Shown piece by piece: positions 9,271 through 59,725 of a DNA stretch of 64,000 nucleotides. The position numbers were made by a program, and so were the translations under genes. This DNA is from Ancylomarina salipaludis (GTDB taxonomy: Bacteria > Bacteroidota > Bacteroidia > Bacteroidales > Marinifilaceae), in contig NZ_SAXA01000003.1 of assembly GCF_004122035.1 (NCBI RefSeq), positions 248,001-312,000 of the forward strand. Direction: 5' to 3'. The notes under the pieces are model-generated. The model did no database searches, was not told where the DNA came from, and saw nothing but the letters and a program-made list of their open reading frames with translations. Each line of letters begins with the position of its first letter. The first letter of the stretch is position 1.

Positions 9271-10449
9271 ATGAAAAAAGGATTATTGTTTTTTGCAGCT
9301 GTAGCTGTTGCTTTCGGATTAAAAGCTCAGGAAAATGTTGATCAGTACAAAAGTATTGGAACGACTATTTTGGATAAGGTAAAAGACGAAAAATTGAGTA
9401 TTGGTGGTTACGGTGAAGTGCACTACAACCAACAGGTGAGTGGGCAGACACGTTACAATGGTAACATGGATGTGCATCGTATGGTGATGTTTTTTGGATA
9501 TCAATTTAATGATAAGACATCATTTGTTACTGAGCTTGAGTTTGAGCACGTTAAAGAAGTTTACGTTGAGCAGGCTTTCTTAAATTACAATGTAAGACCA
9601 AATACAAGCTTACGTGCTGGTTTGATGTTGATCCCAATGGGTATTGTTAATGAATACCACGAGCCAACTACATTTAATGGTGTTGAGCGTCCAAGTGTTG
9701 ATAAAAATATTGTTCCAACTACCTGGAGAGAAATAGGTTTTGGAATTAACGGTCGTTTAGCCAATGCGCCATTAAAATACCAAATGTATATCATGAATGG
9801 CTTTAATGGTTTTGACGGATCAAGCAAACTGAGAGCGAAGGATGGTTTACGTAAAGGTCGTCAAAAAGGTGCTGAATCAACTTTTACATCACCTTCGTTG
9901 TCTGCTAAAGTTGATTACTATGGTGTTAAAGGATTAAATATTGGCCTTTCAGGTTATTTGGGTAAAACTCAGTCATCTGCATTCGACGGTTTAGACAAGG
10001 ATGATAGTATCGCTGAAAATTATGCAGACTCAACTCGTATTGGTATCAGCATGATTGGACTGGATTTTCGTTATAAGCTGGATGCACTTCAATTAAAAGG
10101 ACAGTATATTCACTCATTCTTAAATAATGTTGATGAATACAATAAAGTTGCTGATGGTGCTGATTTAGGAAAGCAAATGATGGGATATTATATTGAGGCT
10201 GGTTACGATTTATTGCATGGAAAAGAGCAGGCTTTAGTTCCATTTGTTCGTTACGAAAATTATAACACTCAGCATAAAATGGCTGCAGGTGAAACTGCTA
10301 ATAAAGCAAATGACCGTCAAGATTTGTTTGTTGGTTTGAGCTACCATTTAGCTAAAGGTGCTGTGGTGAAAGCTGATTACCAGAATTCAAAAGATGGAAA
10401 CGATGTTAAATCCCACTTTGTAAACTTTGGAATTGGTGTTTGGTTTTAA
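9271..10449 (+). CDS. Porin-like outer membrane beta-barrel protein
   Basis: A 392-residue protein with a Sec signal peptide (MKKGLLFFAAVAVAFGLKAQ). It then has alternating amphipathic strands and a terminal aromatic residue (FGIGVWF), typical of a beta-barrel handled by the BAM complex. Motifs such as LSIGGYGEVHYN, FEHVKEVYVEQAFLNY and LRAGLMLIPMGIVNEYHEP resemble phosphate-selective porin O/P-like proteins of Bacteroidota. The solute is unknown. It is followed after 88 bases by an FMN-binding protein, with a strong hairpin between them, and is divergent from the metal permease. Confidence 0.75.
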   Translation: MKKGLLFFAAVAVAFGLKAQENVDQYKSIGTTILDKVKDEKLSIGGYGEVHYNQQVSGQTRYNGNMDVHRMVMFFGYQFNDKTSFVTELEFEHVKEVYVEQAFLNYNVRPNTSLRAGLMLIPMGIVNEYHEPTTFNGVERPSVDKNIVPTTWREIGFGINGRLANAPLKYQMYIMNGFNGFDGSSKLRAKDGLRKGRQKGAESTFTSPSLSAKVDYYGVKGLNIGLSGYLGKTQSSAFDGLDKDDSIAENYADSTRIGISMIGLDFRYKLDALQLKGQYIHSFLNNVDEYNKVADGADLGKQMMGYYIEAGYDLLHGKEQALVPFVRYENYNTQHKMAAGETANKANDRQDLFVGLSYHLAKGAVVKADYQNSKDGNDVKSHFVNFGIGVWF

Positions 10450-10537: not shown

Positions 10538-11059
10538 ATGAGAAAATTTGTAATTGTTCTTTGCCTGATGGCTTGTGCTTTTGTTGTAAATGCCGTTCAG
10601 TTTCCAAAATCAGTTCAGAAGAAGATTGATAAAACATTAATAAAGCTTTATCCTAATAGGGTGGTTGAATTAAAGGATATCGATTTATCTGAAGAGTTGG
10701 CAAACCGTTATTCTTCGATAAAAAATGTAAAAATATCTGTCTTAAGATCGGGGGGAGATGAATTAGGTTTTGCTTGTTTTGCTTCTTCCAAAGGGAAAAA
10801 AGATTACTTCGACTATATGGTTATATTCGACACACAACTGCTTATTGAAAAAGTCGTGGTGCTTGTTTACCGATCAACTTATGGTGGTGAAATTATGTCG
10901 CGTTCCTGGCTGAAACAATTTATAGGGAAAACCAAAGGCGAATCGATGGAAATGAATAAGGATATTGATGGTATATCCGGAGCAACGCTTTCAGCACCTT
11001 CAATTACGCAAGGCGTTAAAGATTTGAGTTTATTGATTACCGAAATTCAGACTAATTAG
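10538..11059 (+). CDS. Exported FMN-binding domain protein
   Basis: A 173-residue protein with a signal peptide (MRKFVIVLCLMACAFVVNA) and a C-terminal FMN-binding domain. The segment DGISGAT (D144-T150) is an exact match to the ApbE flavinylation motif Dxx(S/T)GAT, so FMN is expected to be attached covalently to T150 outside the cytoplasm. An ApbE transferase is encoded at 58076-59119. The flavin suggests electron transfer linked to the envelope, but no partner other than the adjacent porin is visible. Its stop codon overlaps the stop of the convergent kinase gene by a few bases. Confidence 0.85.
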   Translation: MRKFVIVLCLMACAFVVNAVQFPKSVQKKIDKTLIKLYPNRVVELKDIDLSEELANRYSSIKNVKISVLRSGGDELGFACFASSKGKKDYFDYMVIFDTQLLIEKVVVLVYRSTYGGEIMSRSWLKQFIGKTKGESMEMNKDIDGISGATLSAPSITQGVKDLSLLITEIQTN

Positions 11060-56534: not shown

Positions 56535-56575
56535 AATGAGTAAAGAGGTACACGACCTCTTTACTCATTTTTATT
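56535..56575. terminator. Terminator between convergent genes
   Basis: A perfect 15-base stem (56535-56549 with 56555-56569) closes a 5-base loop. A T-rich stretch follows on the plus strand, ending the lipoprotein gene. The minus-strand side lacks an immediate U-run. Confidence 0.85.
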
Positions 56576-57868
56576 TTAGAATGTAAATGCAAAATCGAGG
56601 CTAACTAACCAGGCGTTTAAACCATCACTTCTATCGTAGAAGGCAGTTCTTAAACCAATACTTTTAAACTGAACCTGTTTGTTTTTTACAAATGGAGACT
56701 TAAATCTTCCAACTCCCAATAAGGGTGAATATTGCAAACCTAAACCTATTTTTGTGCTACTCAAATCTGACAAATCGTAATCAGAAGTATAAAATTGAGT
56801 TTCTTTAGCATCCACCATGGCTTTACTCACCTGACCAAATTCATAGAAATAATCGGCTGATGTTTGCGTGTGATACCTGAAGAATGGCGAAGCAATTAAG
56901 GATGGTGTGATTTGTATTGGCAATTCAATACTGGCTGTATGAGCTGTAATTCCCCAACTATCGGTATAAAAGCGATAGAAGGTTCTCAGTCTCATAAAAT
57001 CGTTTAAATAATAATTCAAACGCATTGAGACTGGAATCTTAAGGCGATTATCGTCCAACATCTCAACATGACTGAAACTTCTTAAATTATCATAAGGAAT
57101 TCCATTAACATCATCGAAAAAGACCCTATGAAATGGTGTACTTAAGAGACCTGTTTGAGAAACAACTTCTGCTGAAAATAAGGCTTGCAAACGCTTGTTG
57201 ATGACTTGTGAGTACGATAAGCCAAATTTCATTGTTGTACGCTTATCGTCTTTAAGCCAGTTTGTACCATCACTTCTTCTTTCATAGGGATATAATAACT
57301 TCCAGCTGTCGTTCATATACAGGGCATCAAGACTTAGCGAGCGGTTTTTATCTTTTGAATTAATGGTGTAAGAGCCACCAAAATTGAATGATGTGACATC
57401 AAATTCGGCTGAAAAACCTGCCATTAAGCTATAAGCATTTCCAGAATTCCTCAAATCTCTGCTGTAAGCTGCATTGATATGAGAGCGAACATCTTTTCCT
57501 GAAGCTCCTGTTTTACGCCCTTCGAAATAATCGATGTTATTGGTAGACGCCGATGTATAGAAATCAATTCCGAAATTCAAATCCAGATTTGAGACTGTGT
57601 CCAAAGGAATGTGCACCACAAATGTAGGGGCTACATTTTCCAGTTTTTCTGTTCCCCGTCCACCCGTTACTGGCGAATGATCGCCGTCTTGTTCATAATA
57701 GTTCAACAAGAAGTTGGCTTCAGCATCTTTAAGTTGGGTTTTAGATTTTTTGATTTTTTTCTGACTTTCATTTTGTTTGTCGTCAATACTGTTTTTATCA
57801 GTTTGAGCCATTAGAGTATAAGACCCGGCTAAAACTGTTACGAGTAAGATTAATTTCTTTAGTTGCAT
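56576..57868 (-). CDS. DUF3570 outer membrane beta-barrel protein
   Basis: A 430-residue protein with a signal peptide ending MAQ. A lysine-rich stretch follows (about 30-50), then many amphipathic strands ending in LDFAFTF, typical of a barrel; the pattern is DUF3570. Residues 102-108 read DFYTSAS, close to the ApbE flavinylation motif Dxx(S/T)GA(T/S) with Ser for Gly. This is notable because apbE is two genes upstream. The ATG at 57868 overlaps the end of the DUF4266 gene by 10 bases, implying translational coupling. An in-frame TTG two codons upstream is less likely. Function unknown. Confidence 0.85.
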   Translation of the reverse strand: MQLKKLILLVTVLAGSYTLMAQTDKNSIDDKQNESQKKIKKSKTQLKDAEANFLLNYYEQDGDHSPVTGGRGTEKLENVAPTFVVHIPLDTVSNLDLNFGIDFYTSASTNNIDYFEGRKTGASGKDVRSHINAAYSRDLRNSGNAYSLMAGFSAEFDVTSFNFGGSYTINSKDKNRSLSLDALYMNDSWKLLYPYERRSDGTNWLKDDKRTTMKFGLSYSQVINKRLQALFSAEVVSQTGLLSTPFHRVFFDDVNGIPYDNLRSFSHVEMLDDNRLKIPVSMRLNYYLNDFMRLRTFYRFYTDSWGITAHTASIELPIQITPSLIASPFFRYHTQTSADYFYEFGQVSKAMVDAKETQFYTSDYDLSDLSSTKIGLGLQYSPLLGVGRFKSPFVKNKQVQFKSIGLRTAFYDRSDGLNAWLVSLDFAFTF

Positions 57869-58086
57869 CCACAACCTCCTCCTGATTTACCGCCATTTGC
57901 TCCGGCGGCACCTTCACGGTATGATTGAAAATTTGATTCATAGCTTTCAAGCTTTTTAGCTCTTAGAGCCATTGCCTCGTCGTTTAGATAGGCTTTTTGA
58001 TAGGCAGCAACTGATACGCAGGAGTTGAGCCCGAACAATAAGCATAAACTGAAAAGAAGCAGCTTTGTCTTATTTTTATTGCGCAT
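57859..58086 (-). CDS. DUF4266 small lipoprotein with C-terminal Cys-x-Cys
   Basis: A 75-residue lipoprotein. The signal is LLLFSLCLLFGLNSC, giving a mature protein of about 55 residues. A short helix includes KAYLNDEAMALRAKKLESYESNFQSYREGA, then a glycine-rich tail ends GGGCGCN. The pattern is DUF4266. The two terminal cysteines could bind metal, form a disulfide or be a substrate of the thioredoxin-like protein of the same operon. There is no Thr/Ser in an ApbE-type motif, so it is not an obvious flavinylation target. The ATG at 58086 overlaps the end of apbE by 11 bases. Confidence 0.88.
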   Translation of the reverse strand: MRNKNKTKLLLFSLCLLFGLNSCVSVAAYQKAYLNDEAMALRAKKLESYESNFQSYREGAAGANGGKSGGGCGCN

Positions 58087-59119
58087 GTTTATCTCCAATT
58101 TTAATTTGGTATTTGTGATTAGTAATCGGTTTCTTAATATAGTCTAAATGTAAATTTTCTGAGGTGAAAAGTTCTTGTTTGTCGGTAATAAGCAGACATT
58201 CTATTCCATTTATTTGATTAATCAATTCGAGGCCTTTATCTTTCCCCAACACAAAAACTGAGGTGGCTAAGGCATCAGCAAGCTCAGCATTAGGACAAAT
58301 AATACTGACACTGCATAATCCTCTGACCGGATATCCCGTTCTGGGATCGATGATATGCGAATAGGTTTGACCATTTATGGTGACAAATTTTTCGTAATTT
58401 CCTGAGGTAACAACAGCTGTTTCGTTGATGTTGAGCCATGAAAAGATTTTATCTTTTTCTTTAGGATTGACAATACCTATTTTCCAGTCTTTCCCACCTT
58501 CATCTTTACCCCAACTGATTAAATCGCCAGAGGCATTAACTAGTGCTCCGGTCAGGCCCATTTTCGACATAATGTCCAAAGCTTTATTGGCAGCATAACC
58601 TTTACCTATGGCACCAAAGCCAATTTTCATTCCTTTATCTTTCAGAAATACAGTTCTTTTTTCAGGATCAAGGATGATATTTTTGTAATTGATTTTTGAT
58701 ACTGAAGCCGCAACTGTGGTGGAATCGGGGAGTTCTGTCATTTCTCCGTCAAAATGCCAGATTTTATCAAGTGAGGCATAGCTGATATCGAAAGCTCCTT
58801 GTGTTAAGTTCGATATTTTTATCGAACGACGAATTAAGTTGAATAACTCCTGATCAACAGCAACTGGTTTTATCCCTGCATTTCGGATGATTTCCGAGGT
58901 TTGCGAATTAGGGTCCCATGAGGAAATTAATTTTTCAATTCGTTTGATCTCAGAAATACCTGCTTCTATAGCATTTAGCGCTTTCCCCTGATCAGGACTA
59001 ACCGCTGTAATATCAAACCGGGATCCCATTAAAAGGAGAACCTTAGTGTGAGATTCTTTTTGACCAAACGAATTTAGTGCGAAAATCAGAAACAATAATG
59101 TGATAATATTTCGGATCAT
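58076..59119 (-). CDS. apbE: FAD:protein FMN transferase (ApbE)
   Basis: A 347-residue exported enzyme (signal peptide MIRNIITLLFLIFALNSFG). It cleaves FAD and attaches FMN to a Thr/Ser of target proteins in the periplasm. Family motifs: LMGSRFDITAV near the N-terminus, FDISYASLDKIWHFDG, KIGFGAIGKGYAAN, ALVNASGDLISWG, VVTSGNYEKF, HIIDPRTGYPVRG and ALATSVFVLGKDKG. These include the FAD and Mg-binding residues. It is second in the thioredoxin-apbE-DUF4266-DUF3570 operon. A perfect target motif is present in the FMN-binding protein at 10538-11059. Confidence 0.95.
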   Translation of the reverse strand: MIRNIITLLFLIFALNSFGQKESHTKVLLLMGSRFDITAVSPDQGKALNAIEAGISEIKRIEKLISSWDPNSQTSEIIRNAGIKPVAVDQELFNLIRRSIKISNLTQGAFDISYASLDKIWHFDGEMTELPDSTTVAASVSKINYKNIILDPEKRTVFLKDKGMKIGFGAIGKGYAANKALDIMSKMGLTGALVNASGDLISWGKDEGGKDWKIGIVNPKEKDKIFSWLNINETAVVTSGNYEKFVTINGQTYSHIIDPRTGYPVRGLCSVSIICPNAELADALATSVFVLGKDKGLELINQINGIECLLITDKQELFTSENLHLDYIKKPITNHKYQIKIGDKHAQ

Positions 59120-59123
59120 ATGA

Positions 59124-59564
59124 TTAGTTAATCAGGCTTTTAATGTGATCAACATACTGACTTGGACTCAGGTTTTTATAGCCCGTTTTCGCAACAATAT
59201 TCATGTCAGAATCCAAAATGATAATTGTAGGGAATTGACCATCCTTATTGTATTTTTCAGCTAGTTTTTCGTTATAATTAGTCTGTTCTGCAGTTAGTTG
59301 ATTCTTTTTTTTTCTTGGAAAATCAATATCCACAAGGACCAGATTTTTATTTGCAAAAGTTTTAAATTCCGGACTTTCCAGAATTGTCTTTTTAAGAATC
59401 ATACAGGATCGGCACCAATCTGAGCCTGAAAAATTCATAAAAATGAGTTTTCCTTCTGTTTTAGCTTTTATTTGTGCATCTTCTAATTGATTTCCCTTTG
59501 CGAAACTAGATGAAAGACCTGTAATTACAAGGAAAAAAACGATTAATACAGTTTTGTAATTCAT
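59124..59564 (-). CDS. Exported thioredoxin-fold protein
   Basis: A 146-residue protein with a signal peptide (VLIVFFLVITGLSSSFA) and a thioredoxin-like domain. The redox motif is CRSC (C51, C54) within FMNFSGSDWCRSCMILKKTI, and the cis-proline loop is QFPTIIILDSD. The WCxxC context with a preceding SGSD is that of DUF255/DsbD-gamma-like thioredoxins. It heads the four-gene operon, 4 bases before apbE, and may reduce the DUF4266 cysteines or assist in metal or flavin protein maturation. An ATG start at 59564 is preferred over an in-frame TTG at 59579. Confidence 0.85.
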   Translation of the reverse strand: MNYKTVLIVFFLVITGLSSSFAKGNQLEDAQIKAKTEGKLIFMNFSGSDWCRSCMILKKTILESPEFKTFANKNLVLVDIDFPRKKKNQLTAEQTNYNEKLAEKYNKDGQFPTIIILDSDMNIVAKTGYKNLSPSQYVDHIKSLIN

Positions 59565-59692: not shown

Positions 59693-59725
59693 AAAAAATC
59701 CCACTCAGGTGTGCTGAGTGGGATT
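59693..59725 (-). terminator. Terminator of the amylase gene
   Basis: AATCCCACTCAG (59697-59708) and CTGAGTGGGATT (59714-59725) form a perfect 12-base stem with a 5-base loop and a U-run on the minus strand. Confidence 0.92.

Follow-up and report, generated by a model that had tools for sequence, protein, structure and literature searches.

The window analyzed here, 64,000 nucleotides of the Ancylomarina salipaludis genome (contig NZ_SAXA01000003.1, positions 248,001 to 312,000; coordinates below count from its first letter), carries a compact minus-strand operon encoding a thioredoxin-like protein, a putative ApbE flavin transferase, a DUF4266 lipoprotein and a DUF3570 protein predicted to form an outer-membrane barrel. 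We found that this gene set is conserved and very probably functionally coupled. With an even chance of being right, we propose that the operon acts as a heme-free electron relay of the cell envelope, in which electrons would pass from DsbD to the thioredoxin, to the CGC-ending lipoprotein, to flavin mononucleotide (FMN) held covalently on the barrel and finally to an outer acceptor. The genes lie at 59564-59124 (thioredoxin-like, 146 amino acids (aa), an open reading frame call with Pfam Thioredoxin_7 at 4.7e-11), 59119-58076 (ApbE, 347 aa, PF02424 at 1e-83), 58086-57859 (DUF4266 lipoprotein, 75 aa, PF14086 at 6.2e-19) and 57868-56576 (DUF3570, 430 aa, PF12094 at 9.6e-30, 104.1 bits against a cut-off of 25), each family scoring over its own Pfam cut-off. 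A gap of 4 bases (59120-59123) separates the first two genes, the next two overlap by 11 bases (58076-58086) and the last two by 10 (57859-57868). The frame calls and Pfam thereby confirmed the layout and the terminal GGGCGCN of the lipoprotein described in an earlier, sequence-only reading of this DNA. Judged by eye, all four proteins begin with signal-peptide-like N-termini.

The possibility that the coupling was undescribed had to be rejected, as the gene set was published in 2021 (Meheust et al., 2021, eLife; PMC8238504). The passages of that paper drawn on here describe DsbD-linked clusters with ApbE, DUF3570 (227), DUF4266 (221) and the thioredoxin family PF13899 (183), and 316 further clusters holding the four families without DsbD. 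In the host genome the DsbD-like gene is located on another contig (C4), unlinked to the operon, so that its gene content groups the window operon with the 316 DsbD-less clusters; a strict "DsbD system" was rejected for it, since DsbD is not in the cluster. The same passages report that DUF3570 of Chlorobium luteolum is flavinylated by its ApbE at two [S/T]GA[S/T] motifs, note the CxC of DUF4266, count 25 clusters with VIT1 and propose a DsbD/thioredoxin/flavin system (PMC8238504). The sequence-only reading counted two of the four families as lacking a known function, which is thus out of date for DUF3570, shown to be an ApbE substrate. Its envelope redox interpretation fared better in part: a single process, redox chemistry with flavins, a barrel in the outer membrane and a Cys-x-Cys lipoprotein carrier are supported by, or compatible with, our data and match the published proposal. 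The ideas of transport and of a modified peptide gained no support, as set out below. A literature search by domain names and accessions, and broader searches judged from titles and abstract openings, yielded no further paper on the gene set.

Association of the families was assessed in 395 Bacteroidota genomes (in the GTDB sense, thus including green sulfur bacteria). DUF4266 was detected in 113 of them, every one of which is also among the 118 with DUF3570 (Fisher 8e-94, uncorrected for relatedness; by genus, 26/171 for each), so the co-occurrence on which the sequence-only reading depended goes far beyond chance. In the family of the host DUF4266, the marker of the gene set, occurs in 22/56 genomes and 6/17 genera. 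Gene linkage was examined in loci found via DUF4266 or DUF3570. For this, 40 regions were chosen among the 113 genomes with DUF4266, in most cases a single one for each genus, and plasmid searches returned 2 and 5 records. Once loci shorter than 9 kb had been dropped, together with genes lying 1 kb or less from the end of a locus, 64 of 95 DUF4266 genes were left. DUF3570 lies within 400 bases of DUF4266 in 63 of these 64. ApbE is that close in 49 and, allowing up to 3.5 kb on the same strand, is present in 58; a thioredoxin domain likewise lies no more than 3.5 kb away on the same strand in 58 (in the Vibrio plasmid L096 it is DsbD's own). For the loci found through DUF3570 this linkage is partly built in; the survey of 395 genomes is free of that bias. 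Among the exceptions, L081 has DUF4266 and DUF3570 with neither ApbE nor thioredoxin nearby, L058, L069, L073, L082 and L083 are without thioredoxin, in L084, L088, L089 and for one of the two L087 copies ApbE is not within 3.5 kb, and in L076 DUF3570 is about 41 kb away from DUF4266. The cluster also occurs in Flavobacterium rivuli and one Chitinophagaceae genome (L052, L053). Two Hymenobacter plasmids carry it as well: L097 shows what look like frame disruptions in ApbE and in the tail of DUF4266, and on L098 DUF3570 is annotated in two pieces.

The order thioredoxin-ApbE-DUF4266-DUF3570 is shared by the window and most Bacteroidia loci. A second common order, thioredoxin-DUF4266-DUF3570-ApbE-DsbD, was seen in two loci of family f19 (L085, L086); the Vibrio plasmid L096 reads DUF4266-DUF3570-ApbE-DsbD, and L025 and L064 show still other orders. 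DsbD, composed of DsbD_N, DsbD_TM and a thioredoxin domain, adjoins the cluster in three green-sulfur f19 loci and on the Vibrio plasmid, and Pfam confirmed the proteins in L085, L086, L089 and L096. The FMO protein, a mark of green sulfur bacteria, was found in all six f17/f19 genomes tested. Up to 8-9 DUF3570 matches per genome were counted in f19 (e.g., G197, G327, G264), some of which may be pieces of one gene. Green sulfur bacteria oxidize external donors, and the many DUF3570 matches in their genomes (up to 9) would suit a flow in reverse, in which an extracellular donor supplies the barrel flavins with electrons that then move inward through the CGC lipoprotein. We consider this direction improbable, as many carriers are heterotrophs. 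DsbD, present in the same clusters, moreover normally exports electrons, as is also stated in the passages drawn on from PMC8238504.

The flavin side of the proposed relay starts from ApbE. The operon protein matched the solved structure 7esa (1.7e-46), which we take to be FmnB. In the 7esa alignment its residues S239, H255 and D282 align with the FmnB catalytic triad, whose positions were taken from PMC12052999 and mapped with an inferred offset of 20 between the 7esa chain and the published numbering. By its sequence, then, the operon ApbE combines the homology and the retained catalytic Ser-His-Asp expected of an FMN transferase. A regular-expression check of the catalytic residues in 60 ApbE proteins, of which 30 fit all three patterns, proved too crude and was not used. 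The second ApbE of the host, 29% identical to that of the operon, is encoded on contig C12, where an FMN_bind gene lies some 3 kb away.

ApbE is known to act on D-x-x-[S/T]-G-A-[S/T] (PMC12052999), and the window DUF3570 has one strict [S/T]GA[S/T] motif and one relaxed version, both with the acceptor serine. Motif 1, TSAS (57545-57556, minus strand; residues 105-108), with Ser108 as predicted acceptor and Asp102 at position -6, closes strand 3 of the modelled barrel, and motif 2, TGAS (57500-57511, minus strand; residues 120-123; predicted acceptor Ser123), directly precedes strand 4, so both serines flank one loop. FMN attachment is predicted at Ser108 and Ser123. Relatives were compared after leaving out frames below 350 aa (including both pieces of the split L098 gene), the duplicate loci L001, L035 and L037, and identical sequences, whose removal reduced 94 proteins to 90; three of these were not aligned at the motifs, leaving 87. 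At motif 1 these read SSAS (23), TSAS (22), SGAS (19), TGAS (16), ASAS (4), TAAS (2) and TVPA (1), so that the window protein is one of many with [S/T]SAS at this site (45/87 aligned relatives). The acceptor serine of motif 1 is nevertheless kept in 86/87 and the Asp at -6 in 79/87, and acceptor 2 is Ser or Thr in 80/87. Replacement of the motif Gly by Ala cuts flavinylation of a fumarate reductase to about half (PMC12052999, in the part drawn on). Either ApbE tolerates the relaxed motif or the relaxed sites stay unflavinylated; since the acceptor is conserved, the sequences favor tolerance. If [S/T]SAS sites are indeed flavinylated, searches with the strict ApbE motif overlook many real substrates.

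Other predicted ApbE sites occur in the host. In an Rnf-like operon (L099, contig C23 near 79 kb), an FMN_bind protein beside an RnfD-like protein reads DAITAAT, with Ala for the motif Gly, which is thus not strict elsewhere in this genome either; the RnfD-like protein, named by eye, has DAATGAT. Within the window, about 46 kb from the operon, a small FMN_bind protein (10538-11059, plus strand; signal peptide by eye) with DGISGAT is a predicted ApbE substrate, and its gene comes directly after one for what appears by eye to be a porin-like outer-membrane protein (9271-10449, plus strand). FMN_bind frames of similar size are also present in the genomes of Labilibaculum manganireducens and L. 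filiforme.

AlphaFold2 was run on the mature window DUF3570 with an input of 20 relatives. For the window protein (predicted local distance difference test, pLDDT, 76; predicted TM-score, pTM, 0.75) it modelled 16 strands, or 17 if the short strand 365-369 is counted, and we predict an outer-membrane beta-barrel of about 16 strands. The loops of one side are long (14, 17, 2, 19, 33, 4, 33 and 4 residues) and those of the other short (4, 6, 5, 4, 4, 8 and 17); counted as 16 strands, both termini fall on the short-turn side, and the C-terminal residue is Phe. In known outer-membrane barrels both ends and the short turns are periplasmic, and the C-terminus is often aromatic, which is why the long-loop side of the model is taken as presumably the outer face. 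Solved structures resembling the model are outer-membrane porins and exporters, including BamA (Z 21.7), PelB (20.8), the polysaccharide secretin 4y25 (20.5), BcsC (18.8), CymA (18.0) and OmpG (17.4). All 86 strict [ST]GA[ST] matches in the 90 DUF3570 proteins lie on the long-loop side and none on the other, 79 of them in the strand 3-4 loop, six in the loop joining strands 1 and 2 (five f19 copies), and one in the strand 9-10 loop. At the second of these positions some f19 copies (L007, L087, L088) have a motif of the SGAS type. The DUF3570 of F. rivuli, 39% identical to that of the window, gave a poor model (pLDDT 63.5) with the same strand-loop-strand arrangement and a longer loop. In two Labilibaculum metagenome-assembled genomes (L043:9314-10558 and L055:9051-10349) a second DUF3570 gene, 51-55% identical in product to the window's, stands in tandem.

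The thioredoxin of the operon carries CRSC at residues 51-54 (59403-59414), and its only solved-structure match is 2ju5 (E 2e-17). Against DisulfRedDsbH (NCBIfam NF043050) it reached E 7.7e-29 and 100.9 bits, under the curated cut-off of 190 bits; in sequence it resembles a DsbH-type thioredoxin, without being classed as DsbH. WCxxC is kept in 79/79 small thioredoxins of the surveyed loci (CGPC 38, CAPC 13, CRSC 11, and others). Such a DsbH-like protein, and the linkage of DsbD in other loci, would also fit a role in thiol housekeeping, in which the thioredoxin and DUF4266 reduce or repair disulfides of outer-membrane proteins and the flavinylated barrel is a periplasmic electron sink or source. 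We regard this as unlikely, because the flavin motifs are on the long-loop side, which, provided that the termini are periplasmic, faces away from the periplasm.

DUF4266 would link thioredoxin and barrel. The window protein has a lipobox-like LNSC with predicted lipid Cys23, and the CGC of its C-terminal GGGCGCN is encoded at 57865-57873. Among 70 distinct sequences, 64 end in GGCGCN and 69 have CxC within 4 residues of the C-terminus, the L097 copy, which looks frameshifted, being the only one without. A lipobox-like site is present in 72/73 proteins, and each of these 72 has at most one acidic residue in the five positions after the lipid Cys. Bacteroidota lipoproteins use an acidic surface-export signal; as it is absent here, a periplasm-facing anchor seems likelier for DUF4266. 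CGC dithiols are redox-active. On the Vibrio plasmid (L096:7130-7615, plus strand), DUF4266 forms the end of a longer frame, 154 aa when counted from its first Met, with no lipobox-like site near the domain. That DUF4266 is instead the precursor of a modified peptide, as the sequence-only reading had entertained, might be argued from its shortness, its richness in glycine and cysteine, its nearly invariant C-terminus and the Peptidase_S9 found in 2/117 neighbors. It must be judged most improbable: the tail is conserved instead of variable, the lipobox-like site is nearly universal, the ApbE target demonstrated for clusters of this kind is DUF3570 (PMC8238504, in the passages drawn on), and no peptide-modifying enzyme was found among the 25 most frequent of 179 neighbor families or among 20 singly scanned neighbors.

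Taken together, the proposed electron relay would work as follows, with carrier order, direction, the reach of the tail to the flavins and the acceptor all inferred. Electrons would cross the inner membrane via the DsbD-type protein encoded elsewhere in the host genome, which would reduce the periplasmic thioredoxin at CRSC. The thioredoxin would pass them to DUF4266, whose glycine-rich tail ends in the CGC dithiol/disulfide, and DUF4266 would hand them to one or two FMN on Ser108 and Ser123 of DUF3570, attached by the operon ApbE. As both serines flank a loop on the presumed extracellular side, the barrel flavins would then reduce an acceptor on the cell surface or beyond it, for which oxidized iron in the form of ferric chelates or minerals is the likeliest candidate. 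A more specific version, in which the CGC tail enters the 16-strand barrel and reduces two covalent FMN at its outer rim so that external Fe(III) or Mn(IV) is reduced, is put forward only tentatively, and we think it unlikely to hold in full.

The pointer to iron comes from neighboring genes. The neighbor survey covered 117 of 141 selected neighbors, proteins above 900 aa being excluded, and drew on 37 of the 38 loci chosen, with figures from the 25 most frequent of the 179 families, none of which exceeded 6 of the 117 members. VIT1 is located within 0.8 kb of the cluster in 6/61 loci, plus one fragment; these neighbors and the 25 published clusters (PMC8238504, as above) point to iron. They, along with TonB-receptor domains (Plug 4/117, TonB barrel 3/117) and hosts that are aerobes, would also suit iron assimilation or metal handling. 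In that case metal ions or chelates would travel through the barrel and be reduced by its flavins at the outer membrane, and the CGC tail would serve to bind or escort the metal instead of carrying electrons. We hold this to be possible yet rather doubtful: the operon itself has no metal transporter, most loci are without VIT1, and the thioredoxin partner and the DsbD linkage suit thiol redox chemistry better than metal binding. The transport of a metal or cofactor across the envelope suggested by the sequence-only reading likewise gains no support, with VIT1 metal-ion transporters beside so few loci.

A small Rieske-like protein, exported as judged by eye, directly precedes the thioredoxin in 6/61 loci (L061, L063, L066, L071, L077, L091). 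Its C-x-H and C-x-x-H ligand pattern is kept in five; L061, which lacks the full pattern, may have lost the iron-sulfur cluster. Neither this protein nor VIT1 was found near the window operon. In 12 Labilibaculum/Marinifilum loci (L042-L051, L054, L055) the thioredoxin is preceded on the same strand by a conserved protein of about 182 aa with no apparent signal peptide; its Marinifilum L042 copy gave no Pfam match, and no counterpart was seen in the Ancylomarina loci L038-L040. In f17/f36 genomes a protein of about 220 aa is encoded between ApbE and DUF3570 (L079:6059-6787, minus; L080:9424-10077, plus; L082:6216-6884, minus), with NusG domain II in the L079 copy and in 3/117 neighbors overall.

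Several observations weigh against the electron relay. DsbD is absent from this operon. Motif 1 of the window DUF3570 departs from the experimentally tested [S/T]GA[S/T], and 40 of the 90 DUF3570 proteins miss the strict motif altogether. The outer-side placement of the three motif-bearing loops is not significant by itself, as independent placements are too few and outer loops make up 126/174 loop residues (0.72 cubed, about 0.38). The flavin loop is modelled at pLDDT below 50 (residues 87-102). With Foldseek giving low TM-scores (0.29-0.52 of the query), the likeness is to barrels in general. The Hymenobacter, Flavobacterium and Chitinophagaceae carriers are aerobes, so mineral respiration cannot be the general or only role. 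Metal reducers, by contrast, speak for the relay: L. manganireducens and L. filiforme, both of which carry the four-gene cluster (L047, L051), reduce Fe(III) oxides during glucose fermentation, one study strain also Mn(IV) (PMC5760507, PMC9765461). Against it, in the parts drawn on, the authors point instead to a predicted ferric reductase and an NrfHA-annotated cytochrome c (PMC5760507) or to a cytochrome c gene (PMC9765461).

Signals around the operon were faint. A terminator-like hairpin (59697-59725, minus strand) that separates the operon from the alpha-amylase-like gene upstream is weak, given 3 sites against a mean of 2.8 in shuffles. The site at 56535-56569 was rejected as the operon terminator on the same count and since it has its T-rich tail on the plus strand, which fits the convergent gene. 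The promoter scan stayed at shuffle level (13 vs. 12.1). The host genome (4.15 Mb, 55 contigs) encodes one DUF4266, one DUF3570 and two ApbE proteins. In a named collection, 16 of 18 DUF3570 relatives belong to Ancylomarina, Marinifilum, Labilibaculum or other Marinifilaceae (66-82% identity), the best match being that of Ancylomarina euxinus.

If the flavins sit on the outer face, the operon is a candidate for a heme-free path by which electrons leave Gram-negative cells; if the tail-in-barrel conduit is true, it would explain metal reduction by Labilibaculum and its relatives through an outer-membrane pathway built on thiols and flavins. Porin-cytochrome conduits of the MtrCAB/PioAB type use a barrel to carry electrons over the outer membrane, and the barrel route proposed here would share this feature as a functional analogy only; unlike these conduits, the operon has no heme protein and its barrel is smaller. 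MtrB/PioB (PF11854) was matched at E 0.001 in none of three genomes (the host, L. manganireducens and L. filiforme). This absence counts in favor of the relay, against which stands that no control genome passed this cut-off either.

Among flavinylated proteins, NqrC/RnfG/FMN_bind and NqrB/RnfD, types also encoded by the host genome, have FMN joined by ApbE to the Ser/Thr of D-x-x-[S/T]-G-A-[S/T] (PMC12052999), as is predicted for DUF3570. According to the parts drawn on from PMC11334425, they are soluble domains or inner-membrane subunits, whereas DUF3570 is a predicted outer-membrane barrel. That paper (2024) treats structural models of other flavinylated domains, and a text search of it did not find DUF3570. 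With the clusters of Meheust et al. (PMC8238504) the window shares the same four co-encoded families, including in their DsbD-less version, and differs in its unlinked DsbD and in TSAS instead of [S/T]GA[S/T] at motif 1. The word Rieske was not found by text search in the main text of that paper, and barrel topology, modelled here, is not discussed in the passages drawn on. To the published system our analysis adds the modelled barrel topology with its predicted flavin sites, the relaxed motif 1 with its kept Ser, the nested occurrence of DUF4266 and DUF3570, the Rieske-like and VIT1 additions at some loci, and the carriage of the gene set by two Fe(III)-reducing Labilibaculum species.

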